From the NCBI GenBank assembly GCA_017506865.1, contig JAFCMP010000223.1, positions 1,054,001-1,118,000 on the forward strand: a DNA stretch of 64,000 bases, given 5' to 3'. How positions within the stretch are numbered: position 1 is the stretch's first letter; each line of letters begins with the position of its first letter. A program made the translations under genes and the position numbers. The DNA is from Tribonema minus (Eukaryota; Sar; Xanthophyceae; Tribonematales; Tribonemataceae). Positions 5,329 to 63,530 of this stretch are shown here, piece after piece. The notes under the pieces are model-generated. The model worked only from the letters and a program-made list of their open reading frames with translations. It was not told where the DNA came from and did not search any database.

Positions 5329-8300
5329 ATGCCACCGAGGAAGGCCCCCGCTGCAGGCAGAGGAAACAAGGCTGCTGCTGCTGCAACACCAGACGTGAAG
5401 CAGGTGAGCACGTCGCTGGGGCATGCTGCTTGCTGCTGATGATAGAGAAAGTGCTGTTGCTGCGTGCTGCTTCTGCTGTTTGCATCTCCACGCTTGCACC
5501 GGTGCAAGCGCAGAGAACTCTGCAGCACCAGCAATTGCTGCTGGAATTTCGCTTTTGCAACAGAGCGTGTGCCTTGCAGCTGACTCGCTGCTGCTGCTGA
5601 CGAGGCTGCTTTTGGCAGTCAATGATGCGCGCTACAGGCGAGCCTGGCATGTGGTCTAAGTCGCTGCTCTCCCGCGTGCGCCCTTCGCCCTGCAGACAAA
5701 AGCTTCCCAACAAGCTGCAGCAGCAGCGAGCCAGGCGCCGACGACGCCGGTTCGTGACCCCGCGCCTACCGCCGCATCCGCCAAAGCAGCAGCAGCATCA
5801 AAACAGAAGGACGCAGCGCCTGCTCGTCGAGCGCCCCCGCGCGCAGCAAAAACGGCGACCCAGGCGGCGACGGCGACTGCAGCGGCGCCAGCGATGCACT
5901 CGGCGACAGCCTCGGCGACAGCCTCGGCGACCGAACCGGCGCCTGCCGACACTCAGGCCAGCAAATCTGCTGCTGCTGCTGCGCAGGCAGCGGCCTCGGC
6001 CAGAGAGTCGGCTGGTGCAGGTGTTGCAGCATCCACTGCGAGTGGGAAACCCGGAGCCGACCGTGGCGCCGAGCATACAATGATGATGGGTCCAGCTGCG
6101 GCGAAGGCACGCGCCGAGCCTGCTTCATCAGCCGCGGCTGCCAAGCCATCGGCAGCCAAGGCAGGCGCCGAGCCTGCCGCTGCCGCTCGCCCTACCGCCG
6201 AGCCTGCCGCTGCCGCTCGCCCTGCCGCCACGGCCACCGGCGGGGGTCGTGAGTCATCGGCCGCGGCAGCCAAGCCAGCTGCGGCCAAGGCAGGCACCGA
6301 GCCTGCCGCTGCCGCTCGCCCTGCCGCCGAGCTTGCCGCTGCTGCTCGCCCTGTCGCCGCGGCCACCGGCGGGGGTCCTGAGTCATCGGCCGTGGCCGCC
6401 GAGCCATCTGTGGCCAAGGCAGGCGCTGAGCCTGCCGCTGCCGCTCGCCCTGCCGCCGAGCCTGCCGCTCGCCCTGCCGCCGAGCCTGCCGCTGCCGCTC
6501 GCCCTGCCGCCGCGGCCACCGTTGGGGGTCCTGAGTCATCGGCCGTGGCCTCCGAGCCAGCTGCGGCCAAGGCAGGCGCCGACCCTGCCGCTGCCGCTCG
6601 CCCTGCTGCCGAGCCTGCCGCTGCCGCTCGCCCTGCTGCCGAGCCTGCCGCTCGCCCTGCCGCCGAGCCTGCCGCTGCCGCTCGCCCTGCGGCCGCGGCC
6701 ACCGTTGGGGGCCCTGAGTCATCGGCCGTGGCCGCCGAGCCAGCTGCGGCCAAGGCAGGCGCCCACCCTGCCCCTGCCGCTCGCCCTGCTGCCGAGCCTG
6801 CCGCTGCCGCTCGCCCTGCCGCCGCGGCCACCGGCGGGGGTCCTGAGTCATCGGCCGTGGCCGCCGAGCCAGCTGCGGCCAAGGCAGGCGCCGAGCCTGC
6901 CGCTGCCGCTCGCCCTGCCGCCGCGGCCACCGGCGGGGGTCCTGAGTCATCGGCCGTGGCCGCCGAGCCAGCGGCCACCAAGGCAGGTGCCGAGCCTGCC
7001 GCTGCCGCTCGCCCTGCCGCTGCGGCCACCGGCAGGGGTCCTGAGTCATCGGCTGCGGCCGCCATACCAAGCTCCGCGCCAAGTGCCAAGCCGAGCGCCG
7101 AGGCCAATACCACTTCGCCGACGCAGCTGCCCGCTCTGCCGTCTGCCGATGCCGCCCGCGACGCTGCCGCTGCTGACGGCAATGACTCCGCTGCCTCATC
7201 CACGGCCATCCCGGGGGCAGCAGCCACACCAGCACTCGACCCGGCGGCCACCGGCGGGCAAGGTGATGCACCTGCTGATCCGGTGCACAGCCAGGCAGAG
7301 GCAGGCAGCGGGGCGGACGCCGAGCAAGCACCGGAGATTGTTGACGCCGAGAAGGCAGCCCCTCTTCTGTCGCCGGACTCGACGGTGTCTGATGCCGCAC
7401 ACGTCCCCGCCGCTTCAGCCGCAGCCCAGGCGCCCGCCGTCTCCATTGCCGCCGTTGCTGGCGGGTCCTCTGCCCTCCTCAGCGCTTCACACCCTGAATC
7501 AGCGCCTCTCACAGAAGCCGCATTCCGGGAGTTCATCAGCGGCCTCGGAGGTGCAGAGCTGGACGACGACGACATCATGCCGTTGTATGCTTTTGCGCAG
7601 CGCGTGACGCCGCAGCAGCTCATCACTTTGGCGGACGTCTACAGCGCCCATGTGAGCAACCGCGGCGGCGGGCCGCTCGACCAGGATGACCACGTCACCG
7701 TCCTCATGACGATTCTGCGCAAGGCACCTACTGTCTTCAAGAAGCGGCAACAGATCATGATGGCGGCGGATGAACTGGCTGCGCGCGAGCAGGCGAAGCA
7801 AGCGGAGGTCAACGCGGCCTCTGCGTTGGAGGAATCTACAGCTGCGGCTGCGGCAGCTTCGGCTGAGGCGGCTCGACGCGCGGCCGCAGAAGCCGAGCGG
7901 GCTGAGGAATCAGCGGCGGCGGCGGCCGACAGGAAACGTCGGTCGCAGGCGGCTCTTGTCACCATCCAGGAGCAACGGTTCGGGGCCGACCAGCTGGTGA
8001 CGAACGTTTTCTCGCACATCGAAAAAGAGGTCAGTCACTCCCGCAACACCACAAGTCGCATGCAGAGATTTTGAATAGTCATGCCACGCCTTGCGGCCTC
8101 GTTGAGGCATGAATTCCAATTGCTGATTGCACGGCTCTGATTCCGGCTCTGTGTTGTTCGCTGCCGCTCTGCAGATCTGTGGACACCTACTCCCCCCTAC
8201 CCCGCCGATGTTGGCGGCGCCGCCTGCGCAGGTACGCCCTCGCCGTCGACTCTGCAGTCTCATGTTTCCGGTGTGTGCGTGCTGTTCTGGTTCAGCCGCT

Positions 8301-12425: not shown

Positions 12426-13115
12426 AGCCACTCACACCACTCACATCCGTAGGCTCCCAGTCACATCCGTAGGCTCCCAGTCACACCATTGACACCTGAA
12501 AGCAGCCACTCACACCACTCACACCAGTCACACCACTCACACCAGTCACACCAGTCACACCACTCACACCACTCACACCTGAAAGCAGCCACTCACACCA
12601 TTGACACCATTGACACCATTGACACCATTGACACCATTGACACCATTGACACAGTTGACATCCGCAGGCTCCCATCGACACCCGAAAGCAGCCACTCACA
12701 TCCACAGGCTCCCACTCACACCAGTCACACCATTGACACCATTGACACCATTGACATCCGCAGGCTCCCATCGACACCCAGCGGCAACCCGAAAGCAGCC
12801 ACTCACATCCACAGGCTCCCACTCACACCAGTCACACCATTGACATCCGTAGGCTCCCATTGACACCATTGACATCCGTAGGCTCCCATTGACACAGCTG
12901 ACACAGTTGACACAGTTGACATCCGCAGGCTCCCATTGACATCCGCAGGCTCCAGTTGACACCCAACGGCAACCCGCAGGCTCCAGTTGACAGCATTGAC
13001 ATCCGCAGGCTCCATCGACCATTCAGACGACTCAGACGATTGCAGGGTCTCAGATCATGAGACTGCGCTGTTGCACCCGTCGCCATCGACGATTCAGAAG
13101 ACTCAGACGATTGCA
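12426..13115. repeat. Compound minisatellite (CACTCACACCAGT / ATTGACACC / CATCCGCAGGCTCCC)
   Basis: About 600 bp are built from three interleaved short motifs: CTCACACCAGTCACACC, CATTGACACC (six in a row near 12598-12650) and ACATCCGCAGGCTCCC. They recur in higher-order blocks ending near 13020. Right after this, a duplicated piece with ACTCAGACGATTGCAGG occurs at about 13020-13050 and 13090-13118. Open frames here are periodic Thr/Pro/Ser/His or Cys/Gly/Trp translations of the repeats and are not genes. From 13120 to 13890 I see no gene, only a 7-bp-stem hairpin (GCCGGGC-loop-GCCCGGC) at about 13691-13711. Confidence 0.85.
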
Positions 13116-19899: not shown

Positions 19900-21900
19900 G
19901 TGTGTGTGAGCCACAGGTAGAAATTTTCAATGACCAACATGGGGGATGTGTAAGTGGACCTAATCACCTAGACATCGGCTCCCTTTGGTGCGACGGCTGC
20001 GCCTGCAGCTTCAAATGGCACGGCCGGCACGTTTCGATGCAACGAATGCCGATCGCTTTGACAGTTTGCACGTTGACGGCATGGATGAATTAGCAACCCA
20101 GCGGAGCCTGCGACCAATACAGCGACCCCATGTCGCCACAAATCGGCCCACATGAAGGCACCTGGTACCCGGTGGTTCCAGTCCGCTGCTTTGGCCGTCG
20201 GTGATGCTGGGTGTGACTACAAGGATTGTCGAGTGCCGTTTTCGTCAAACGTGCATAGCGAGAAAGTTCATAGTTGAGAACTTTGGAAGATCTGAAGGCT
20301 GCGAGCAAACAACAGCAGGGGATGGATGGCGCTTTTGTCATGTTACACTGCCAGAGTGGCATGATCATGGCACGCTTTTGTCATGTTACACTGCCAGAGT
20401 GGCATGATCATGGCAGACTTTGCACTGCTGAATGCCATAGCTTCTCAAGCCTGCAATACCAGTTGCATTGCATGGCCCAGCATCCAAGGTATTGTCTGGA
20501 TCTGCTGGAAATCTTCCAAAGTCCTGCAGTGAAGTGCAGCTTTCAAGACACCCATGGAGCTTCTTGGCCAGCGTCTGTCAAGTTCAAAAAAACAAGCAGC
20601 CTGAGCTATCGCTTGGAGATCAAATCCATTTGCAGAGAGCATCACCTGCATGACATGCCTGCGGTACAGCATCGGCGTGAACGCATACTACATCTCCACC
20701 ACAATAAAATATATCATCGCCTGTACAAGGGCGCAGTGCAGAGTGGGCTGCTGCGATGAAGCAAACTTTCCGATTCCATAGGCAATGGCCTCTCTTGGGG
20801 CCTTGATGATTACAAGTCCAGCAGTACTGTTTATTAATACTCGCTCAGGACGCGAAATAGATTAGTGAATGGTATCTAAGCTTGCTGTACAGAATCTACA
20901 TGTCGTGTGGCAGTCTGAAAGTGTATCAAACCACTCAAACGACGCCGCCGCCAAATGGCATCTCGAGATCCCCCCTACGTCCTTTGTCCATGCGCCCCCC
21001 CCCCCCCCCCCCACTGAATTCCGCCATGCGTGTCATGACTCATCAGATCGTCCAGAGTACGCCATGTGGAGCGCTGCCAACAGTACCAAGCACGCCAGGG
21101 CGATACCCTCAAAAGCTTTAGAACACGCTTCTCCGGGCACTTGACATCCTGCTGGCATACTCCTTCGCCACAGCCTCCAGCAGCTTCCGCCACTGCGCCC
21201 CGATGCTGCCAAATGACCGGATTGCTAAAGTGGCAAGTTTGTAGCAATGCTGATCACACCTAATGATCTCAAGTACATACACATAGCAGGTATCCTCATA
21301 AAGTCTTTCAACAGCTAATACGTTGTGAAAGCGCGGTTGGTCACATTCAAAGTTTGTGTGGAGCAACACAATCATATGACTGCTGAAGATGACTCTCAAC
21401 ATCAGCACCACGTCCACTATCATGGTCAGCTGAAGATGACTCACAACATCAGCACCACATCCAGTATCATGGTCAGAACCTGCCTACTACATGCACCAGC
21501 AATGCAGCGCCTTTTGCACGAAAATATGTCGTCCAAACAACATGTGACGCGGCAGGTTTGCAGTTACAAACAGATGCACAAGTCTTGTGAGGAAAGCCTT
21601 CATACACACAGGAGAAATGTGATTCCCAGCAAAACAAGTGCACAAAACAACTCAAAGCGTATCGGGATCAACACCTCTCCTGCACATGTATTTATAACTA
21701 TCAGTATCAGTCAACCTCGGCCAGCCAAAATACCATGCACTCTGCTGAAAATGGGAGCGTGGTGCTGTGTCGCTTCATCATATGGCGTTGTGTGCCTGCC
21801 GCCTTGCTGTGTTTGTGCTACTGTGCTAAGCCGTAGCTGTTGCATGGTGGCAGGGCACTGGAATGCCTTCATGTGTCTTCTACTTTGAAAGTATTAGTGT
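19900..21900. other. Gene-poor stretch with short tandem duplications
   Basis: No convincing gene was found. Visible structure: a 43-bp tandem duplication at 20331-20414, a 47-bp tandem duplication at 21383-21476 (CTGAAGATGACT followed by CAACATCAGCACCAC), and a C-run at about 20995-21012. At 20827-20850 there is a piece resembling the 3' end of the gene at 63861-64000. Isolated open frames are short and lack splice support. Confidence 0.5.
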
Positions 21901-26592: not shown

Positions 26593-29500
26593 ATGGAGGC
26601 AGCTGCAGTGGGAGAGGAAGATGTGCAGGCTGAGCTGCCTGCCAAGCTAGCTGCTATCTCGCTGTCGGGGCAGCAGCCCTCAGTTGCACCAGCTGAACCC
26701 GTGCAGCACCAACAGCAGGCGGCTGGTGCGATGGGAGGCGGAGATTACGGCAGCGAGGGATCGCTTGGCGATGAGGGTGACGACGGTGAAGGCGGCAGCG
26801 GCGTTGCGGGCATCGGCAGCAATGAACCTCACGAAAGATGTGTGCTGGAGGATTTCACGCAGTGCAGCCAGAGCCACCTGTGGAAGCTTATGATGTCCTT
26901 CTACGACAGGAAGGGGGTGGAGAGCTGGTCTCAGGGCATCGTGCCTCACTTCATCACCTGCAACTCTTTCATAGGGCGCAGCTATGCCCACGTGCTGTGC
27001 GGCTTTCTGAGAGACTGCATGACCGCCAAGAGCACCATGCCTCTGGACCAGACGCAGCCGCTGTACATCATAGAGCTGGGAGCAGGCAGCGGCAAGTTCA
27101 GCTTCTTCATGCTCAAGGTGTGTGACTGTACCGGATAGGATCTTCATTACACTTGGATGTTGTGCATGAGTTATTTTACACTTCAACTTCGAATTGAAGC
27201 GACGTCTTTCCCAGGAAAGTGTTATTTTTGACATGCAAGACGGCTCTTTCCGTCATTCTGGCGCAATCACACTGACACAAACTCAGTATTTGACATTGTG
27301 GCGCGCTAGGGTAATGCCTCGGCAGCGACCTGCAAATTTCAGGTGCAGCGTGTCCCTGATGCATATCTGATGCAATGAGGATTTAGCTAGCTGCAGCAAA
27401 GCTTTTTTATGGTTGGATTATTCAAAGTCCATATTGGATAATCTCCCCAGCCAGTTTAGGAATTGACAGCTTTGCTCCTGGACACGACGAACGCAGCAAT
27501 TGCTGTCACGATTGATATACCGTCTTGTCGATAATTAAGGCCCGGGACGGAATTTTGGTACGTTTTTACTACAGCAACAATAAGCACGTCCCCCCTTTTA
27601 TCGGCTGCAGTAAAATGCATCCCCCCTGTTTTTTCAGCCTCCAGCAGAGCGCGGAATGCATTTCGTGATGCCGCTAGTAGCTAGATAAGAGCCCCGCAGT
27701 AGCCTATGATGAGCAGAGACAGCACTTGTTGCAGCTGCCTTCAATTGTCAGGCCACAGATCCTCGCAGCAGCTCCAGAGAGGGCTGCAATGCTGAAAACT
27801 GAAGAACTTCGATCAACTTCAAGCGTGACCCTGGCAAAATCGGTGACGGCTGAATTCTCCGAGAGCAAAGCCCCTGGCGACGCAACCGAGCAGGAATCAA
27901 GTGCTGAGGACCTGACATGATACTAACTTCAATTAGCGTCCCCCCTTTTAACTCGACTCACAATAAGCACGCCCCCCCCCCCTTTTTACGCCAAGATCGA
28001 AATACCGTCCCGGGCCTTAATTATCGACAAGACGGTACACAGCATTGCTGTGTTGCAGCAAACATCTGCCATTTATCAAGTCATGTTGGGCATGACACAT
28101 GCATCAACTACTGACCTATTGTGCTGAAATGATCAGTGCAGACAATGCATCACAGCACATATGCTGCGCAGTTACGTCGAGGCCATCTGTATACATGGCC
28201 CGTTGCGGCGCTCTACAGCACATCATTCCAACTCTTTCAACTACTCAACGAGCCCTTGCATGATGGCGTGAATGCGCGTGCATGGCTGACTGCGTGCAGA
28301 GCTGCACTGATGGTTTTTGAGACTATTGGGAGAGTACGAGCTGTTGGCCTGTTTCAATGTAGAAAACTCGGACACTCGACATTACCTTGCGTTGACTCTT
28401 TACAGCGTCAGCGTTCCCCAACAGCATTTGACCCTGGCTAGTACTGGCGCACATTTTGAACAAATGAAGAAATTTGTTGTATCAGCACGTTGAGCAATGA
28501 CAGCGCTTCCTTGCGAGCAGCGCATGCCTGATGACAGCCTGCACAATGCACCATAGCCACCACCTGCCATTGATTTTGTGGCAATAATTCAAGCAACGCT
28601 GCCATCAGGCGCAGGCATGATACAGTGGTTGGTGCACTGCGGCATGAACTGCGCCACCCACCTTCTTGTGATCGTATGCCGCTCGCTATGGTGCGGGCCG
28701 CCGTACCTGTCTTGTGCAACTGCCGCTCACCATCTGCCATCTAGATGGACTACATAGCGCGTCGCCTGGCACATGCTTGTTGCAAAGGGTTCATCACCTG
28801 CTCGGTGGCCCAAGGATGCCTGGAGCTGGCCGTGGTGCATATATGACATACTTGAAGTATCCGTCAGAGCTATGATCAACGCCATGTACTGATACTTCTT
28901 ATTCAAACCCGGACCAGGATGGGCACTGCTCCGCCAGACAGCGTGCAACTGAAGTTGAAGTAACACAGTGCCAGGCACCCACAAGAATCACCCTGTACTT
29001 GCTGAGTATAGCTTCAACTGCACAATGCCGTGCTGTTCGCTCAACGCCATGTACCCATCACCGCCCCGCAGGCGCTGCTGCAAATGAAGGACATGTGCGA
29101 CTTCCCCCTGGAGAAGATCGTGTTCGTCATGACGGACTTCACAGAGTCCAACTTCAAGTTCTGGGCGGACCACCCCGCGCTCAAGCCCTTTGTGCAGTCG
29201 GGCCAGCTGGACATGGCCATATTTGACGCGGTCAATGACACGTCCATCACGCTCAGCTGCAGCGGGGTCACGCTGTCCCCCGGGTCGTGCGTGAACCCCG
29301 TGTGCATCGTGGCAAACTACCTGTTTGACACGCTGTGCCATGACATCTTCCAGGTGCGTCACTCTCTCGCTGCAGAGTACATGGCAAGCGTTGCATGTTT
29401 AGGCCGCAACTGCGCTCACAATTAGTATGCTGCAAGCTCCACATCTTAGCACCGCTGTGCCTTGACTTGCCAGCAACAAACATGGTGATCATTGATGGTT

Positions 29501-32500
29501 TGCTATTGATTCTTGCTTATATTGCGAGAAGCAAGCTTGCTGCGGACGCTGACTTGTTGCGCATGCTTCGCCATTGCATGTGTATTGTTGAAGTTGGTGC
29601 GGTGGAGTTCAGGCTTGTAATTCAGGCTTGTATTGCATTGTCAAGCTCGTGTACATCCGTGACCCTAGTCTACAGCAATGGGGCGTCACACAACTCGGTC
29701 ATGATTTCAAAAAACTGTTCTGCACCATAGGTGTTGCCATTGAAGTTGGTCGATTTGCCCCGCGTCTCGTCTCATTCATGCTGCCCTTTCACATTTCAAC
29801 TTCAACTGCAGGTGGATGGCAGACAGTTGAAGGAGGGCCTCATCAGCGTGGGATCCAAGAGGCCTGCGGAAGCGGACCCGCTGGACCCTGAGATCATAAA
29901 GCGGTTCGACAACAAGTTTTGCTACAGAGATGTGAGTTCAAGCAATGAAATGCTTTTTTTTAGGTTAATGGATGCGCACAAGCACCAATTTGTGCGCAAG
30001 TGCTTGACAGATCAGCAGAGGCCATCGCGAGGCGATGTGCAGGTTCACGTTCAACACGCATGCAAACAGTTGACGGCACTTGACTGATCGTCAGTGAACG
30101 TGTGATGAAGCATCAACGTGATCGCTTGAGCCTTCAGTGATTCCGCAATCACAGGGACCATAGTCAACGAGACTAGCAGAAACAGTCATGATGCAGAGCC
30201 TGATGGTCGCTGTCATGACGTGATGCAAAAAACGTATAGTGCGCCGCGCTCACGGAATCAATCGCTTCTTCACCGTCTGCAGAACCAAGCATCAAACTGA
30301 CAGCAACTTGCACGCGCCACAACCAATGTTTGACCAGAACACAACATCCCTGAGAGCAACGATGCGACGCTCCTACTCACACTGTCGTTGTATTCCGTGC
30401 GCAAGCTGTTTGACGCCACCGCCCTGCACGGTAACACGCAGCCCGTCTTCTTGACACCACATGCGCGAGGATTACTGCAATGGCACAAACATTCATGTCT
30501 GGCACCTTCAGGCACCACCTACTACTACCTGGTCAATTTCAATCATTCGGAGGTGTCATGGACGTCACCTGCTCACACACCCTACTCATTGACCCACCCC
30601 CCCCCCCCCCCCTCCGACCACCAGATCAGCGAGGACTACTACAAGGGGGAGGAGATCGACGCCGTCACATTCCAGCACATTCTTTGACACGCTCTTCAAC
30701 CACGCGCTCCGAATTTCGCTCGTATTGAACCTCACGCACCCTTTTCATTGAACCGCCCCCCCAACCCCCTGTTCAACACCAGATCAGCGAGGACTACTAC
30801 AAAGGCGAAGATGTCGACGCCGTCACCTTCCGCCGCATCCTGCACTGGTACGTCGACCACTTCTCCCCCTCCCCCGCGGGGGCCAGCATCCTCTTCCCCA
30901 TCGGAGCGCTGCGCGCACTGCGAAGGCTGCTCAGTTTCAGCGGCAACCGCGCTATTGTCATCTCGGGGGACAAGGGGAACAACAACCCGGACCAGTTCAG
31001 GGGCCTCGCGGATCCGCACATAGCGGTGCACGGGAGCTTTTCCGTGATGGTGAACTACCATGCGATTGGCGCGTACTTCACCGCGCGCGGGGGTTTCGCG
31101 CTGCACAACCCGCAGGTGCGGTTTGAATTCGCGGTTGGGGTAGGTATTGCAAGTCACGTTGATAGATGTTGATGTTGTGACTTTGTGGGGTCCGCGGCAC
31201 ACAACCCACAGGCGCGTTGGAATTCTGGGTAGGGGTAGGTAGGGTGTGCATGCCGTGCTGAGCGCTGACACGATGTGTGCAGTGCTCATTTTAAAGGCGA
31301 GTCTGTTCATAGACAGCAGGCAGGGTAGGTAGGCAGTGCAGCGGTAGTGCTGGACGCTGATGCGGCATGTGCTCTTGAAGTGGCTGCAGCAGCGGGCAGG
31401 GCTACTTCCATCGACTGTGTGCATACAGGAGGACATGCCGGTTTGGGCATTTTGTGCCACAGTGGGCATTAAGACCGCTAAGACTTTGCTTCATTAGGGA
31501 GGATGCTCATTTCAGAGGTAATACTTCTATAACACTCGGTAATCTAGTAACTCACTTAGTGTCACTTACGCCAACCATTGTCTGGGGCAACTTTAGCTCT
31601 GCATTCTGGGGATCGCGGTTGTTTAGACATCAGAGCTGCACCCGGTGTGTGCACGCTGTGCGTGGGGGCATTGCTCAACATCTATTGCAGCGAGCGGCTG
31701 CTCGTTGTGCTGATGTTGATGGCATTGCGCATGTGCAGAGGCTCATGCTGTAGGGCATGACCCATGGACAGTACATGACAGTTTGTAGCACTGCCTTACG
31801 GCTAGACTTCGGCCTATGCCAATTTCATGGCCTTCGCTGCTGTTTGCACCTCCACCGCCTCTATATCCATAGGTGACTGCCTCTTGCTCAGTGCTAGTAT
31901 GTAGTTAGGGCTAGTGTCGCATCGCTCAACAAAGCCCGTTTGTTTTCTTCAGTTTATCCTCTTGTAGGCTAGGGTCACTACGCACCCCTGAACCCCTCCC
32001 CCGTACCCTCCTACCCCCCCCACTCCCCTCCTCACAGGAGGAAGCGTCGCTCAAGGTCTCCGCCTTCGTCGCGACGGGCGACGTGCACGCAGCCGGCGGC
32101 GTAACCGCCGACGACGGCCAGTGGACCGGGGGTGCCTTTGAGGCCAAGGACGAGGCCCGCAGCCGCCTGTTCCCCAACCTCGCCGGCGCGTTCAAGTACC
32201 ATGTGGAGCACTTTGGCCCGAATGACTTCTTTGTCATGCAGAAGGGGCTGAAGGAGGACGCGCCGTCGCCGTCGCTGAGGACTGTCGTGGCGCTGCTCAA
32301 GCTGGGGGACTGGGACCCGGACGTGTTCTACAAGTTCCGGGACGTCATCCTCAACCAGGTGGGGGTCTTGGGGGCAGAGGCGCGATTTCGTGGTGACGTG
32401 CATATATGTGTGCACATGCAAAGCATATGAAGGCAGAGTTTGTTATGATCGTGGTGATGACACTAAGTTGAAAGTTGTAACAATGCTGCAAGTTCCGGGA

Positions 32501-35386
32501 CGTCATTTTCAACCAGGTGGGGGCCTTGGCACAGGCGCGAGTTTGCGGAGACGTGAATATATGAAGTATGCACATGCAAAGCATATGAAGGTGGAGTTTG
32601 TGATGATCGTTATGATTATGGAGACGAATCAACAGATTGTAAAGCTCTAGGTGACAAGGTGTGGTTAGCCATCAAATTGCACTTTGCAACAAGGCTAAGC
32701 CTGCTACTACCGTGCTGGTTTCTTCAAGTGCCAACCTCGGGGCTCAAGTTGTTGCGATTATACTATTTTGAAGTTCGCAACAATGCTAAGCCTGCTACTA
32801 TCATGCCGTTTGTTGCGTTGGTCTTTTACTTTTCAGGTGCCAACCTCAGGGCTCAAGTTGAGGAAGGACTTGTGTCGTGGAGTGCCGCGCGTGTGGGAAA
32901 ACTACTACATGCTGGACAAGGACAAGGTCAGTTACAGCGGTGTAAACGCCACATGTAACTGCCCACGTGAGCTGTTTGCAGCAGACTCTGGCAGCGTGTG
33001 CAGTACTTGCGGTGACGATTGGTGATGATCGCTTCAGTTTGCAGTTTCGGTTCGGGGTAACTGCCGTACCCAATGTGCGTGCACAGCATACGCAACTCGC
33101 ACATTCCTGCTCCTGCATCGTTGTTGCTGTCATCAGAATCTGCACCAGTTGCATTGCCTTCATAGACTGCAGCAGGGCGTCTTGGCAGTTCTGCTTCGCC
33201 ACTTGCGCGCCGTTCTGGATCGCAGCAAGAATTCGTTGCTTTGCGAGACCGGTCAACATCGGAATCAGTGCATGTATGCTGTATACATGTTCCTGTGAAC
33301 ATCTGCAACATTCGAGATCTTTTTGATTCTCAAATGCTGCTCCATTGCCTGTCTGTGATTGTATAATCATGTTCTTCCCCCCGCCCTCCCCGCTTCTTGT
33401 GTTGTTTCCTGCCACAAGGATGTTGCATTTGAGATCGGACGATTCTACTACGGAATACGCGATTACTCACATGCTCTGGAGTACTACAAGTTCAGCAGCG
33501 ATCACATTGGCGAACACCACGTCACGCGCCACAACATTGGCCTTTGCTACTACAGCATGGGTGAGTCTGGCTTGGAGTGTCACCAGTTGAACAGTTTCTT
33601 ATTGAAGTTGCGCGCGTGGTTCAGCATATGATTGGTGAACACCACATCACACGCCACAACATTGGTCTTTGCTACACAGCATGGGTGAGTCTAACTTGGA
33701 GTGTCACCGGTTTTACAGTTTGTCGCTGAAGTTGTGTGCGTGGTTCAGTATGTCATTGGCGAACACCACGTGACACGCCACAACATTGGGCTCTGCTACT
33801 ACAGCACGGGTGCGCGTCTTGCTGGGGGTGTTGAATCATTGAATAGTTCATGGAGTAATCCTATGAAGTTCTATGTCATTGGCGAAAACCTTGGCATGCG
33901 CCACAAGGATAGGCTTCATGTCTACGTTATGCACGAGTCCAGGTGGATCGCCATGAGCTGAAGGGGTTTCCGTTGAAATCGCGGGCGCCCTTCAGCTTAC
34001 GTTTTTGATGTGCTTCATTTCATGGGTTTAAGGATTGTACCTCATATTGAAGGGTCGACCGCAAGGCTTACCTTGCGCAATCCATGATCGAAGAGCATGC
34101 TGCCTTGAGCGTCCAAGGCCGCATAGCATGTTGCAGTGCGTGCATACGCCACCAGCTGACTGCTTGCTGTGATCAAGCCACCAATGCTGTATGAACATAC
34201 ATGGCTTGCGATCTTGAGCAAGGCCTTGGCTCAGCAGGTACATGCTGCATCATTCGCTGGCAGTCATGTGCTGCCGACGCATTTGATTGGGGTTGGGGCT
34301 AGCTTTTTTGTATTCTGTGTGGCACACCCCCATGACAACAATTGCCTGCCACGCGCAGTGTAGCCATAGGTGGGATGCAATCAGATGCAGCCACCATGAA
34401 GTCAAGACAGCGCCCTCGCACGCGGCCTTCACACACGGCTTCCACAAATTTTGCATGACTACCATACACGGACAACGTAGTCACAAAAACATTCTTCACA
34501 AATACATCCACAGAACGCATATATGCCACACTGCGGGATAACGTATTCCAGTGCAGCGCGCGAGGCGGCTTGCGTCGCTGCGTACTCACCGTCGCTGCTC
34601 TGGTTTCGCCCCCGCTAGATGAATCCCCGTGCTTTTTCAAGCGGCAGGGGCTAAGTCTCCAATCTGCACGCCACTACCTCTCACGTGGCCTGCCGCAAGC
34701 GACAAGGACAATTCCAAGGGCCTTTGTGTTTGCCACGTGATATGTCTGAAGTTTATGGTTCTCACTACTTGTACTTTCGAACTTGAACTGTTGCTCATGT
34801 CTTTACAAACTTTGGTTTCTCACTACCTTGTACTTTTGAACTTGAAGTATTGTTCATGTACATCTTTACAGAACTTGTCAAGGCGACCCTTAGGCAGATT
34901 TCAAGTGCATTACCAGGTGCTGCCATAATCCAAGAAGCTCCCACCACAGCATGACTGTGGCAGCCAATGCCCATTCGCTTCAGACTCCCCCTATGAGCTC
35001 TACATAACGCCTCTCACGTCGTTTCAATCTTCAAGCCACTCTGTAACGAACTTCATGTTGACGCTCCATTCACAGGCAACATGACCATGGCCACGCAAAA
35101 CTTCGACGCGGCGCTGCGCCTCAATCCGGAGTACGACAAGGCACACTCCTGGAAACAAAAGGTGCAGCAGGAGCTGGCGGCAGCGGCGGCGGCGGCAGCA
35201 GCTGTCTCCGCAGCGCCCGTTGCGGACCGTGCGCCGCTGCCATCAGCGCCGCCGGCAGCAGCAGCGCCGACGCCGGCAGCAGCGGCGGCGGCGCCGGCAG
35301 GGGGTATGGCGGCAGCAGCGGCGGAAGCGGCGGCAGCGGTTGGCGATACGAGCGCTGCCATGTCACCGCCATCGCCGGAGCCCTGA
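26593..35386 (+). CDS. SAM-methyltransferase-like protein with C-terminal TPR (10 exons)
   Basis: Exons: 26593-27117, 29072-29353, 29812-29931, about 30355-30430, 30512-30552, 30783-31115, 32038-32358, 32837-32926, 33419-33560 and 35076-35386. Phases agree throughout, giving about 746 residues. The acceptor of exon 4 (GAG|AGC) is the weakest; the protein sense of exons 4-5 is good (LLLTLSLYSVRKLFD, TTYYYLVNFNHSE). After an acidic leader comes HLWKLMMSFYDRKGVESW, then the SAM-binding signature YIIELGAGSGKFSFFMLK (about residues 158-175), then VFVMTDFTESNFKFW. The middle is a conserved family region (GDKGNNNPDQFRG, FVATGDVHAAGG). The C-terminus has two TPRs (RDYSHALEYYKFSSDHIG, MATQNFDAALRLNPEYDKA) and an Ala/Pro tail. 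Substrate unknown. Several introns hold duplicated exon edges. Confidence 0.7.
27520..28035. mobile_element. Non-autonomous TIR element with perfect 31-bp ends, TA target site
   Basis: Bases 27520-27550 and the reverse complement of 28005-28035 are identical over 31 bp, beginning CCGTCTTGTCGATAATTAAG and ending CCCGGGACGG. The element is flanked by TA on both sides (27518-27519, 28036-28037), as for Tc1/mariner-like insertions. The 516-bp body has no transposase. Inside are two direct copies of CAATAAGCACG(T/C)CCCCCC and a third C-run. It lies in the first intron of the methyltransferase-TPR gene. Identical ends suggest recent mobility. Confidence 0.85.
30575..30690 (+). repeat. Truncated upstream copy of exon 6 and its 3' splice site
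   Basis: 30625-30682 repeats the start of the true exon (30783) with its pyrimidine tract and CACCAG acceptor, at a period of 158 bp. Both encode QISEDYYKGE and DAVTF. The upstream copy then runs into a stop (TFQHIL, TGA), so its inclusion would truncate the protein. Confidence 0.85.
32333..32650 (+). repeat. Tandem duplication (158 bp) spanning the exon 7 donor
   Basis: AGTTCCGGGACGTCAT-CTCAACCAGGTGGGGG occurs at 32333 (true exon end and donor) and again, slightly changed, at 32491. In both copies it is followed by GCACATGCAAAGCATATGAAGG-type intron sequence. Confidence 0.85.
32688..32870 (+). repeat. Tandem duplication spanning the exon 8 acceptor
   Basis: CAACAA-GCTAAGCCTGCTACTA and GTGCCAACCTC-GGGCTCAAGTTG occur at 32688/32728 and again at 32778/32837. 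The second copy is the true exon start after TTTTCAG. The first has lost the acceptor context (TTCAAGTGCC). Confidence 0.85.
33490..33900 (+). repeat. Three to four tandem copies (~124 bp) spanning the exon 9 donor
   Basis: The segment encoding IGEHHVTRHNIGLCYYS plus its GGGTGAGT donor occurs at about 33507, 33631 and 33755, with a fourth partial copy near 33877. The first is the real exon end. Copy 2 has lost two bases (CTACACAGC) and is frameshifted; copy 3 has GGGTGCGC. Confidence 0.85.
34757..34872. repeat. ~56-bp tandem duplication in intron 9
   Basis: Two copies of GGTT(T)CTCACTAC-TTGTACTTT-GAACTTGAA followed by GTTCATGT begin at about 34758 and 34814, in the intron before the last TPR exon. 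Confidence 0.75.
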
Positions 35387-36352
35387 CACCTCCGTGTGCC
35401 GTCAACTGATTGCCGTCTGATGGATGGCACAGGCTGGTGCTGCTGTTGCGCTGAGGTCTGCTCACTGCGCGGCCCCTGCGCAGTTGCATTTGCTGCTCTG
35501 CTCGGCCGCCGCCGTGGCCGCTGCCACAGCAGCAGCGGCGGCAGCAGAAGCGGCGGCGGCGGTGGCACCAACAGTGCTCAGCTAGCCGCAGCTGCAGCTG
35601 CAGCACCAGACGCGAAAGATGCCGCTGTTGCGACAGCTGCAGCGCTTGATGATACTCTGCGCTCTGGTGCCGATAGATGTGATCATGGTGCCAGGGCGGC
35701 GCTCATGCGCCACAGCGCTGCTGAGCAATGGCACATTGCTTATACTTGAAGTAATCACTCATCTGGTGTTGCTTGCTTGTGTCTGTCAAAGTATGCCAGT
35801 GGTCATCACCTGCTCGGATTGCATGTGTTGCGCAGAGCAATACTGGCTCGCTGTCAAATGAGCGATGTCGTCTTGACACCTTCTTTTGCTTTTCAGGCTC
35901 TCGCGCGTAGTGCGCTAGTGGACTTTGCAGTTCAGCAACAAAGACAATTGACAGATGTGTTCGTATGAGGTCTTCGAAGCAGCGATGGACTGTATCGGCG
36001 CATGATGTTGAAGCAACAGATCGACCAGCCGGCTACATGTGTCAATTGCAGCTCAAACTGGTACAGTATGCTTGGACGCATGTAAAAAAAAGGTGATCAA
36101 CCGAACCGATTAGGCCAATGCCCAAATGCAGACGTCTAGTTCCACTACTCTCATAGTAATGCAACTCGTTCAAAGTGTCCACAGTACCTCACAGCAGCAT
36201 GTGAGGTGATGCACATGCCAGTGCAGTTTGATCTGCCAAGTACAGATACAGAACGCATCTGACGAACAGAACACAGCATCAGCAACATACACCTCACAAG
36301 TCCGCCAGACTCAAACCATCATGAACAGCATCATGGAGTGCAACGACGTGTG
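35387..36352. other. Convergent intergenic region
   Basis: This lies between the stop codons of the methyltransferase-TPR gene and RRP9. At 35500-35600 GC-rich GCAGCAGCGGCGGC-type low complexity resembles the Ala-coding tail just upstream. No gene is supported in the rest. Confidence 0.4.
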
Positions 36353-39300
36353 CTATTCATCTTCATCATCACCGCCGCCATTCACACCGCCCTCCGGCGC
36401 CGTCAGCGGCACGATGCACACCCTGTTGCGCGCATCCTTCTGCCGCTCCCACCGCCCGAGCCTGTGATCCTGCCCCACCGCCGCCACCGCAAACCTCCCC
36501 GTGCTAGCAACGCTCAGCCCATTCACAAACCCCGCCAGGGGGATGGCGTTGACCTGCTCCAGCGTGCGCGCGTCCGTGTCGCAGTGCCACAGCCGGATGT
36601 AACCGTCGCTCGAGCCCGTAACTGCCAGGTCGCTGCTGCGCACCGCCGCCGCCGCGCACACCCACGGCGCGACGCCATTGCGCCCCACGCCGTGCGCCGC
36701 CGCCGCGACCGCCACCGGCTTCTTCTTCAAGTTGAACCACAGCGACAGCGCCCCGTCCTCGCCGCCGCTGAGGAACCACTCGTCGTCGATGCACGCGACG
36801 GCATCGACGCTGCCTCCGGCGCCTGGCCGGAAGACGAGGTGCGTCTCCTCAAGAATTTTCCAGGCGCGGGCCGTTCCGTCGCGCGCGCCGGAGACGGCGC
36901 GCTCTCTGCGGAACGCGTCCAGCGCGTTGACCTCGCCCTGATGGCCAAATAGCGTCTCTACATAGGCCATCTCGCTCAGGCCCCAGTGCTTGATGGATCT
37001 GGGGGGGAGGGGGTGCGGTTTGCGCAGGTAGGGGGCGACGTGGAAGCAGGGTTGTGAGGGCCTGACGCATCTGTGTGGAGGTGTGAGTATAGTGATTACC
37101 AGAGGAGAGGACGCTTGTATCACAAGGTTTTGATGTGGGTATTTTTGTAAGAAGTAGAACTACTGTAGTTTGTAGGGTTGCGGCCCTGCGCACACCAAGT
37201 GTCAAGATGATGATGGCTGAGGCATCAGTGCGTAGCGGCTATATCGGCTAAAGTGTAATTGCATCTCTGTGCAAAACACCCTTGCTTGACTGGTTGTATC
37301 ATTCTGCCTCAAAGATGAGGACAGAACACCCTGCCTAATTTGCAGCTGCCCAGCAGAGGCGCTGCCAAGCATCCACGTGTCCCGCTGCGACCGCACACAT
37401 CATCAACATTGATGATAGTCATTGTTATCATTGAAGTTACATAACGAATAAAAAAACAACGCGTTGCTTCGTTAGTTATTCGGTATTCGTTATACAACGA
37501 ATAACTAACGACGCCTCTGAAAGCGATTCGTTGTTTTCGCATTTTTGAGAAATGCCCCCCTGCAGCTCGTTATCGAGCTTCTTACGCGGTGTAAACAGCG
37601 AAGGCTGCACGCATGATGTTGCGCTGACGTGCCAGCACAAGCAGCACCAGCACAGCAGCACACCAAACCCGTGTCTGTGTTTGCCACTCTCGCCAGAAAG
37701 CACGCACTGCAGATAGCAGCGCATGAAGCACTCGCCGAGTGCTTGCTTCATGCTGGTTGGCAGCAACACACGCCCAAGCCTTCATGGCGTTGATCTTGAG
37801 ACTTCTGACCACCGGCCTTGCAGCTTTGCTTTCAGCGCACACCAAACATGAGAACTTCAACAGTTGTGGAACCTCAAGTAGGGGTTGGGGGAAAGGTGTG
37901 AGAGCCATGCTATGAGTTCACAGGGCTATATAACTGCTGAAGACAAGATAAGTGCAGCCACAATACATGGAAGTCCGACAGAAAGCAGAGCTCTATCACA
38001 CTTGACCCCTTTGTAGGGTGGCGGTAAGTGAAATTTGCTAGTGAAACCATCAATATCAATCAATAACGATGAAATAACGAATATAATATGTATAATAACG
38101 AATAACTAACGAATAACTAACGAATGGTCCAGCAGGCATAACGAATAACTAACTATTGCAATAGTTGCGCACCTCTAGTTATCATTATCATAACAGAAGT
38201 ACTATGACAAGTCACTGACATGCTCATGCTGGCACAGGTGCGGACAGCACACACGACCTCAGCAACGCGCTGACCACCACACGCGCTGGTCACCATTGTG
38301 TTCAACTTCAACTACTTGAAGTACAAGCTCACCTGTCCGCGCTGCCAGAGTAGAGCGAGTAGGAGCCGTGGCGAAAGGCGAGCGCTGTCACGGCGTCCCT
38401 GTGCCCGCTGAAGCTTGCCACGACTTCATCCGTGCGGCAGTCCCACACGCGCACCTACACGCGCATGGTTGAGACGAATTGTGAAGACGACAAATATTGC
38501 TCATACATAGCCTATTGGAACACTTCATTTTCCTACAATTTCCGAGAGCTTGCCGTCAATCAAATCACAGAGGCATTGACACCAAACTGGGTGTATGCGG
38601 ACAAAGACTGTACACAGAGGCATTGACACCAAACTGGGTGTATGCGGACAAAGACTGTACAGCCGAATGCTGCATCATGCAATGCACTGAGGTTAGATCG
38701 TTCTTGCACACAGCAGTTGCTCTGACGTTGCATCATGTGTGTCAATGATGACTCACTCTCACGAGTCATAAGTCACTCATGATCATGCATGCCCTTGTGC
38801 CTGCCGAATAATTGCCGCCACACCATGGTCCCGCAACTGAATATACGTACCGCTAGCATGGTGGAACATACAGCAAGTCACCTTGTGAAGAGGCATTGAA
38901 GTTTCTGATGCATGCAACCTGTCTGCACTCGTTACGATCTGCAGCGGCTCGATCCTGCTATACCTACGGTATGAGTGCAGCACAGGGCAGACCTCATGGA
39001 CAACAACAGTGAACAACTGCCTTGACATCATCAAGACTCATACTGCTGACTCATACCTACATACCAGCCTGTAACAGCTCGCAGTGGCTTTGTACTTGCC
39101 GAGAGTGGCAGCACAGCAACTTTCTGTAGAGAGTGCACCTGCATGAAGACCTCGGAGCTTCCACAAGCTTCATGCACAGTACCGGATGTGCTGTTACAAA
39201 TTCGCTTCGCCCATGTTTCGTTGAAAGATTTCAGACAGTCTCTGTGCTAGCTTGACGATAAACATATACCGCCACATGCTGGGCACGATTGCCTTCACCG

Positions 39301-55039: not shown

Positions 55040-55163
55040 CTGACCCTAACCCTAACTTTAACCCTACACCTACTCCTGATCTAGGGCTAACCTTGACGGT
55101 AAGAAACACTTGCCCTACACCTACTCCTGATCTAGGGCTAACCTTGACGGTAAGAACACACTT
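55040..55163. repeat. 51-bp tandem duplication next to telomere-like repeats
   Basis: Two copies of CCCTACACCTACTCCTGATC, then TAGGGCTAACCTTGACGG, begin at 55062 and 55113. They follow CTGACCCTAACCCTAACTTT at 55040-55059. Confidence 0.8.
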
Positions 55164-55674
55164 GCAAGATGACTTTGCGACCAGTGGCTGCAGGTCCTTG
55201 GTTGCAGTTTGTGCACAATATTTCCTGGGAGTGGTTCAGCAAGTTCCCGCATTGTTAGGGTTTGGCTGAGGGTTGGCTTTGGCCAAGGACAAGAGAGAGT
55301 CACACAGTCACGCACCTCTTAAGTAGGCAACGGCGTTAATAAGGCCAATTGCTGTACCGCAGACAACCATGCAGGCAGTTCACAGTTGCACACAGAGAAA
55401 GGGCAGGACAACAGGTTTAGCAGAGGGACAATTGGACCCTTTGCAGTGGCAAACAGCAGACTGGCCCTTGTCTGTATGTGTACATGGTTTGAAGCACATT
55501 GCTCAGCACACTGACACTGATTGTTGCCGCACCGGAGGTTTAATGCGGAGGCGGCATGCGACCTGACCACTGCAGCCAGTGCCACGTTCACGCCTGGGAG
55601 GTCATGGAAGGACATGTGCCCGTGCATGAAGTACCAAGGACCTTCACGCTAAAGCAAGGTATGCGACGACAATC

Positions 55675-57034: not shown

Positions 57035-63530
<6,496 letters not shown>

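Follow-up and report, generated by a model that had tools for sequence, protein, structure and literature searches.

Exon edges and their splice signals copied in tandem into neighbouring introns in sampled genes of Tribonema minus

Two genes with duplicated exon edges

Tribonema minus is a xanthophyte of the PX clade. The window analysed here, a whole stretch of 64,000 nucleotides of its DNA, contains a methyltransferase-TPR gene (MT-TPR) and a DHFR-TS gene (Table 1). The MT-TPR model has 8 exons and 707 residues, and a slightly shorter translation matched TPR_1 and Methyltransf_28 (24.0 bits, cut-off 23.3). The closest database protein is P0001, with 99% identity over 100% of the query. Trinity is a transcript assembler, and because this EukProt entry bears a Trinity name, we take it to be transcriptome-derived. 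P0001 crosses the junctions of the model without added sequence, and the gene fitted to it turns exons 6-9 of the initial annotation into exons 4-7.

Gapped self-alignment was run over 264 kb, that is, the window and the 200 kb upstream of it, with a score of at least 40 as the threshold for a pair. Local pairs numbered 57, whereas the controls, offset by 3, 10, and 20 kb, gave 20, 12, and 0. The window by itself held 37 local pairs versus 2, 0, and 0 at the same offsets, and chance is therefore not their source. The upstream 200 kb (contig positions 854001-1054000, L003-L022), which were excluded from the intron statistics, differ in composition from the window: GC content is 57-70% per 8 kb, versus 53-59% in parts of the window, donor-like words are few, and there are long tandem arrays with units of 245, 255, 312, 509, and 1497 bp. 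The window has minisatellite arrays of its own at 12477-12961 and 6125-7063 (units of 9-29 bp, and of 30-183 bp).

In MT-TPR, four exon edges had been described as having adjacent duplicates that include the splice site, and all four were recovered by gapped self-alignment, at spacings of 158, 158, 91, and 125 bp. The list was right but incomplete, as a fifth duplicated edge lies at the exon-4 donor (31115). At the exon-4 acceptor the spacing of 158 bp holds, but the alignable remnant of the 158-bp unit is down to about 55 bp. In the stretch 30783-30831, one residue sets the sequences apart: P0001 reads KGEEVDAV, the coding copy KGEDVDAV, and the intronic copy (30625-30673) KGEEIDAV, so that the intronic copy may keep the older state at the E/D residue.

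The DHFR-TS model agrees with the public T. minus protein P0121, which is marked partial and is without the first two residues. The boundary duplication previously noted in a DHFR-TS intron is borne out by five clear acceptor copies, 115-145 bp apart and upstream of the exon start at 61779, together with a sixth, weak one. The next-best match to this DHFR-TS is a Brassica cretica record, P0122 (1006 bits); its score is far above those of other plants among the matches listed, which suggests that the record is contaminated.

Table 1. Features of the MT-TPR and DHFR-TS genes, and fresh tandem pairs (window positions unless a locus is named)
Feature	Position	Strand	Remark
MT-TPR exons 1-3	26593-27117, 29072-29353, 29812-29931	+	Fit of 99%-identical protein P0001
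MT-TPR exon 4	30783-31115	+	Both edges duplicated; P0001 joins RD to ISED and HNPQ to EEAS
MT-TPR exon 5	32038-32358	+	Donor duplicated
MT-TPR exon 6	32837-32926	+	Acceptor duplicated
MT-TPR exon 7	33419-33560	+	Donor duplicated several times
MT-TPR exon 8	35076-35387	+	Last exon; low complexity, adjoins UTR
Exon-4 acceptor pair	30619-30673 and 30777-30831	+	158 bp apart; self-alignment
Intronic copy, exon-4 acceptor edge	30619-30673	+	158 bp upstream; AG kept
Exon-4 donor pair	31091-31146 and 31187-31241	+	96 bp apart; fifth duplicated edge
Intronic copy, exon-4 donor edge	31187-31241	+	96 bp downstream; donor GT now GC
Exon-5 donor pair	32328-32458 and 32486-32616	+	158 bp apart; self-alignment
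Intronic copy, exon-5 donor edge	32486-32616	+	158 bp downstream; GT kept
Exon-6 acceptor pair	32677-32751 and 32768-32860	+	91 bp apart; self-alignment
Intronic copy, exon-6 acceptor edge	32677-32751	+	91 bp upstream; AG lost (AA)
Exon-7 donor pair	33506-33687 and 33631-33812	+	124-125 bp apart; self-alignment
First intronic copy, exon-7 donor edge	33630-33688	+	GT kept
Second intronic copy, exon-7 donor edge	33754-33812	+	
Third intronic copy, exon-7 donor edge	33877-33935	+	Decayed: 64% over 59 nt, 83% over first 30
Intron-only tandem duplication in MT-TPR	34759-34812 and 34817-34876	+	About 58 bp, twice; touches no exon
DHFR-TS exon with duplicated acceptor edge	61779-61957	+	
Other DHFR-TS exons	57035-57766, 58072-58266, 59126-59332, 63281-63530	+	
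Five clear intronic copies, DHFR-TS acceptor edge	61076-61139, 61211-61284, 61328-61399, 61462-61527, 61587-61658	+	
Sixth, weak copy of DHFR-TS acceptor edge	60667-60705	+	
Fresh tandem pair	20330-20415		43 bp, twice; 100%
Fresh tandem pair	38566-38661		47 bp, twice; 100%
Fresh tandem pair	55062-55165		51 bp, twice; 98%
Fresh tandem pair	L035 760-961		101 bp, twice; 97%

Copied edges beyond one gene

The sample amounted to about 300 kb of a genome of 158 Mb, of which it is presumably representative. Beyond the window, it included 17 kinesin loci (L023-L039, 85 kb) found by a profile search, in which exons are known by homology. These loci were picked as multi-exon clusters from a table of 132 matches; one of them, L023, was picked partly for its overlapping matches, which favours the duplication hypothesis, and its match at 268-311, itself a copy, was excluded from the exons. 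Over 91 kb, consisting of the oriented kinesin loci and 6.6 kb of MT-TPR, 131 local pairs scored at least 40, whereas the four offsets used as controls gave 1, 4, 5, and 0.

In this sample, exon edges, together with their splice signal, often have an adjacent copy in the intron that they border. When homology-defined exon cores were used as BLAST queries (E ≤ 1e-5) against roughly 1 kb of the adjoining intron, with the low-complexity last exon of MT-TPR removed, a copy was found at 32 of the 134 exon edges of the 17 kinesin loci and MT-TPR; the share of MT-TPR, read from the match list, was four of these 32. The geometry was uniform at this threshold: exon heads were copied upstream (19/67) and tails downstream (13/67), with no copy at the wrong end (heads downstream or tails upstream, by match midpoint), no minus-strand match versus 50 on the plus strand, and no exon core in other-locus introns, of which one was drawn at random for each edge. 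Tandem duplication across the edge predicts this correct-end rule with its clean controls. With the threshold relaxed to E ≤ 0.01 and low-complexity filtering switched off, 12 of 81 matches were off the matching end, seven of them in the last MT-TPR exon. Matches covered one exon end, the largest being 126 of a 147-bp exon core, and no whole-exon duplication was found in the roughly 1 kb of adjacent intron searched.

Two further kinesin loci, L040 and L041, were chosen without sight of their sequence. Two of their 12 edges were copied, both of them tails downstream and in three to four copies each; the sole stray was a 20-bp minus-strand match at 5e-5. The initial annotation had proposed a genome-wide growth of introns by boundary duplication. 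Of this proposal, local duplication beyond a single gene stands, within the sample, on the 131 pairs and on the copied edges (32/134 and 2/12).

Edges compared with intron interiors

Two statistics were used to compare edges with intron interiors. The self-alignment statistic considered 106 edges that had GT/AG no farther than 45 bp from a profile match and were not at domain or stretch ends, a rough set because the HMM misplaced some edges. Local pairs spanned 26 of these 106, versus interior coverages of 0.134 and 0.130 after collapsing, which gives a ratio of 1.86; for the kinesin loci alone (22/93 edges) the ratio was 1.75 (bootstrap 95% 1.14-2.51). The second statistic, the BLAST count at E ≤ 1e-5, is independent of HMM-placed edges: real edges (23.9%) were copied 2.2 times as often as intron pseudo-edges (30/278, 10.8%), and the locus-stratified expectation for real edges was 11.6/136.

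Random placement of duplications was simulated for both statistics with author-chosen settings, and all simulated null ratios were below the observed ones. For self-alignment, ratios of 0.49-1.22 were obtained over 14 settings, whose interior coverage was 4-6% or 19-26%, none matching the observed 13%, and three of which either omitted constraint or penalised edge duplications. For BLAST, four settings gave 1.06, 1.27, 1.40, and 1.48, the highest with strong constraint, and upper 95% resampling limits of 1.70, 2.03, 2.82, and 2.78, the last two under strong constraint. The observed 2.2 is thus beyond the upper limit in two of the four settings, and the probability of a ratio of at least 2.2 is 0.09-0.10 under strong constraint.

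An edge excess of 1.8-2.2 times follows partly, and perhaps wholly, from the slower decay of coding-anchored pairs. The density of alignment ends peaks over the initial 50 bp of exons, which may be due to faster decay of introns. Boundary targeting, the part of the earlier proposal that aimed the process at exon edges, is unproven: duplications also lie within the interior of introns (13% of positions after collapsing; 30/278 pseudo-edges). The outcome that would have counted against that proposal, boundary duplications no commoner than duplications elsewhere in introns, was not obtained in the sample (excess 1.75-2.2); clear targeting was not obtained either.

Fate of the copies

As had been noted, it is the extra copies in the intron that decay while the coding copy stays intact, which follows from selection on the latter. 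Comparison of each real edge with its best copy gave 124/1290 differing sites in the exon part and 422/2381 (17.7%) in the intron part, figures that are rough because the HMM misplaced some edges. By codon position, differences were 73/990, 57/980, and 143/971 (7.4, 5.8, and 14.7%; 56 copies of 34 edges, L040 and L041 included). A free copy would be expected to differ from the coding one at positions 1 and 2 by about half of the intron divergence, and at position 3 by up to all of it. The pattern is roughly that predicted for one frozen coding copy and one free intronic copy, and real-copy differences fit 25/25/50 over the codon positions (p 0.29). Splice dinucleotides GT/AG are intact in 19 of 26 best copies, approximately the retention expected from two free sites at 9%. 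The near-neutral drift of the copies in the sample, and a loss of dinucleotides such as neutral drift would leave, indicate that they are mostly dead. In addition, splicing uses the coding copy in the two genes checked, since P0001 for MT-TPR and the public annotated protein P0121 for DHFR-TS skip every copy; on this ground, and because the copies drift like non-coding DNA, the earlier suggestion of tolerated alternative splice sites is not supported.

Neutral decay may nonetheless not be the sole account of the copies, as the exon part has in several cases held up much better than the intron next to it. Identity of 93-98% persists in some exon parts where similarity of the adjoining intron is gone, as in L034 (45 bp, 98%, at a spacing of 197 bp). 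Judged by eye, a telomere-like insertion displaced the intron part in L028, which explains its lost similarity. In most local pairs (114/131), differences affect more than 7% of the aligned sites. Among pairs of at least 93% identity, the ratio of length to spacing was at least 0.85 in three of six intron-only pairs and in none of 11 exon-overlapping ones; none of these 11 aligns over half its spacing, and they are therefore not simple fresh tandem copies.

When copies of one edge were compared with each other in nine arrays, exon-derived parts were 0.845 alike and intron-derived parts 0.72 (baseline 0.50), although this comparison is confounded by the selection of arrays by exon similarity, and gaps were scored as differences. 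Copy-copy differences by codon position (13.6, 10.5, and 17.5%) have a mild position-3 excess (p 0.01, pairs not independent), which could reflect weak constraint or, alternatively, a budding of the copies from the coding exon on more than one occasion.

Telomere-like blocks in introns

Short blocks of (TTAGGG)n are present in 21 of the 53 introns of L023-L039 and MT-TPR, for example in L034 (oriented 2320-2418) and L035 (4241-4293). Telomere-like 18-mers gave 366 matches in 66 kb, with none in shuffles and none in exons, and the blocks were G-rich on the sense strand in 30 cases versus C-rich in 11. In the assembly, (TTAGGG)5 has 5426 exact, overlapping matches, many of them interstitial among the places listed. 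As a cause of the duplications these blocks were considered and rejected: they have no association with duplication ends (27% versus 31% expected).

Origin of the copies

With a probability of about 0.8, the copies are dead by-products of frequent local tandem duplication in introns, with units of mostly about 50-300 bp placed roughly at random. If placement is essentially random, some units would straddle a splice site, and both resulting copies would carry the exon edge and its splice signal. Splicing would stay with the copy that is continuous with the exon, the left one at a donor and the right one at an acceptor. The protein would be unchanged and the event tolerated, because the coding copy stays in place; the intron would be longer by one unit, and the other, intronic copy would drift until unrecognisable.

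The underlying lesion is probably either error-prone repair of staggered breaks, with fill-in and joining as one candidate route, or replication slippage; both would fit. Copies are direct, on the same strand and near their source (50 plus-strand matches, none on the minus strand, none in other loci). The spacings of 47 adjacent pairs range from 25 to about 350 bp, the largest class being 100-125 bp (12/47). In the freshest pairs, with units of 43, 47, 51, and 101 bp, the match extends 0-2 bp beyond two exact copies, in what is a handful of junctions; with 39- and 23-bp units the extension is 3 and 6 bp.

It is also conceivable that exon edges are true hot spots, through breakage tied to the junction (for example by R-loops or chromatin), and that boundary duplication is then a distinct process of intron growth. 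Junctions would in that case have seeded decoy sites at about a quarter of edges, often as arrays, and duplication there would be a main route of intron lengthening in the lineage. The edge-to-interior ratios of 1.86 for all loci and 1.75 for the kinesin loci (1.14-2.51), the BLAST contrast of 23.9% with 10.8% (stratified expectation 11.6/136), and the density of alignment ends over the initial 50 bp of exons speak for hot spots. However, random-placement simulations already reach 0.49-1.22 and 1.06-1.48, with a probability of 0.09-0.10 for a ratio of at least 2.2 under strong constraint; interior arrays are abundant, as in L037 and L036; and the density at exon starts may reflect faster intron decay. 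Both the hot spots and the major role in intron lengthening that they would imply are considered unlikely.

Selection for function, with the copies serving as alternative splice sites or terminal exons, would agree with the GT or AG kept in 19 of 26 copies, with the exon parts that are 93-98% alike next to introns that are not, and with the mild position-3 excess between copies. It is improbable, however, given that real-copy differences fit one free and one constrained copy (25/25/50, p 0.29), that the transcript-derived MT-TPR protein skips all copies, that four of the five MT-TPR spacings (158, 158, 91, and 124-125) would shift the reading frame, not being divisible by three, and that the remaining, 96-bp copy would read into an in-frame stop (its open frame ends at 31172). 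An arrival of exon-like sequence with introner-like or other mobile elements might be suspected from the foreign-looking telomere-like blocks in 21 of 53 introns, but at E ≤ 1e-5 no match was in an other-locus intron (one random intron per edge), inverted or at the wrong end, which makes this origin very improbable. Equally improbable is an assembly artefact, in which reads or haplotypes were stitched into false tandem copies: in 114 of the 131 pairs more than 7% of the aligned sites are different, and many loci contain nested arrays with several members.

Implications

Local tandem duplication, rather than mobile elements alone, is here directly evidenced as a means of intron lengthening. If the sample is typical, the genome offers a natural experiment with thousands of exon edges accompanied by copies of graded age, in which RNA-seq could gauge how the spliceosome chooses between a real site and a near-identical decoy 50-300 bp away. 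Should the junctions be hot spots after all, the spliceosome must ignore many near-perfect decoys. Gene predictors are also at risk, as our own HMM called several copies as exons.

Comparison with known systems

In rice, patch-mediated repair of double-strand breaks reportedly gives short tandem duplications. The T. minus copies resemble these in being short, direct and in tandem, with little homology at the junctions, of which few fresh ones were seen.

Exon-edge copying in Tribonema is unreported in the titles and abstract starts searched, most subscription papers being out of reach. As far as literature listings reach, tandem duplication across exon boundaries is known from single cases, and its density here is new. 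In a potato RdRp gene, a tandem duplication across the boundary of intron 1 and exon 2 created a new intron (PMC4974935). The T. minus copies are similarly adjacent and direct, with acceptor, pyrimidine tract and exon head. Unlike in that case, introns only lengthen in the two T. minus genes checked, and about a quarter of the sampled edges are affected, often repeatedly.

More generally, tandem duplication is a recognised route of intron gain (PMC3443670), and internal gene duplications were surveyed by Gao and Lynch (2009, as cited in PMC4974935). In both, as in T. minus, the duplication supplies splice signals. However, the model in PMC3443670, and likewise the survey as cited, has exonic sequence duplicated to make an intron, whereas none was made in the two T. 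minus genes checked. Introners, as described in PMC9860276, are similar in that sequence is spread over many introns of one genome. Unlike them, the T. minus sample is without copies common to different loci, introns having been compared with each other only through the control offsets (1, 4, 5, and 0 pairs), and the source of each copy is the neighbouring exon.
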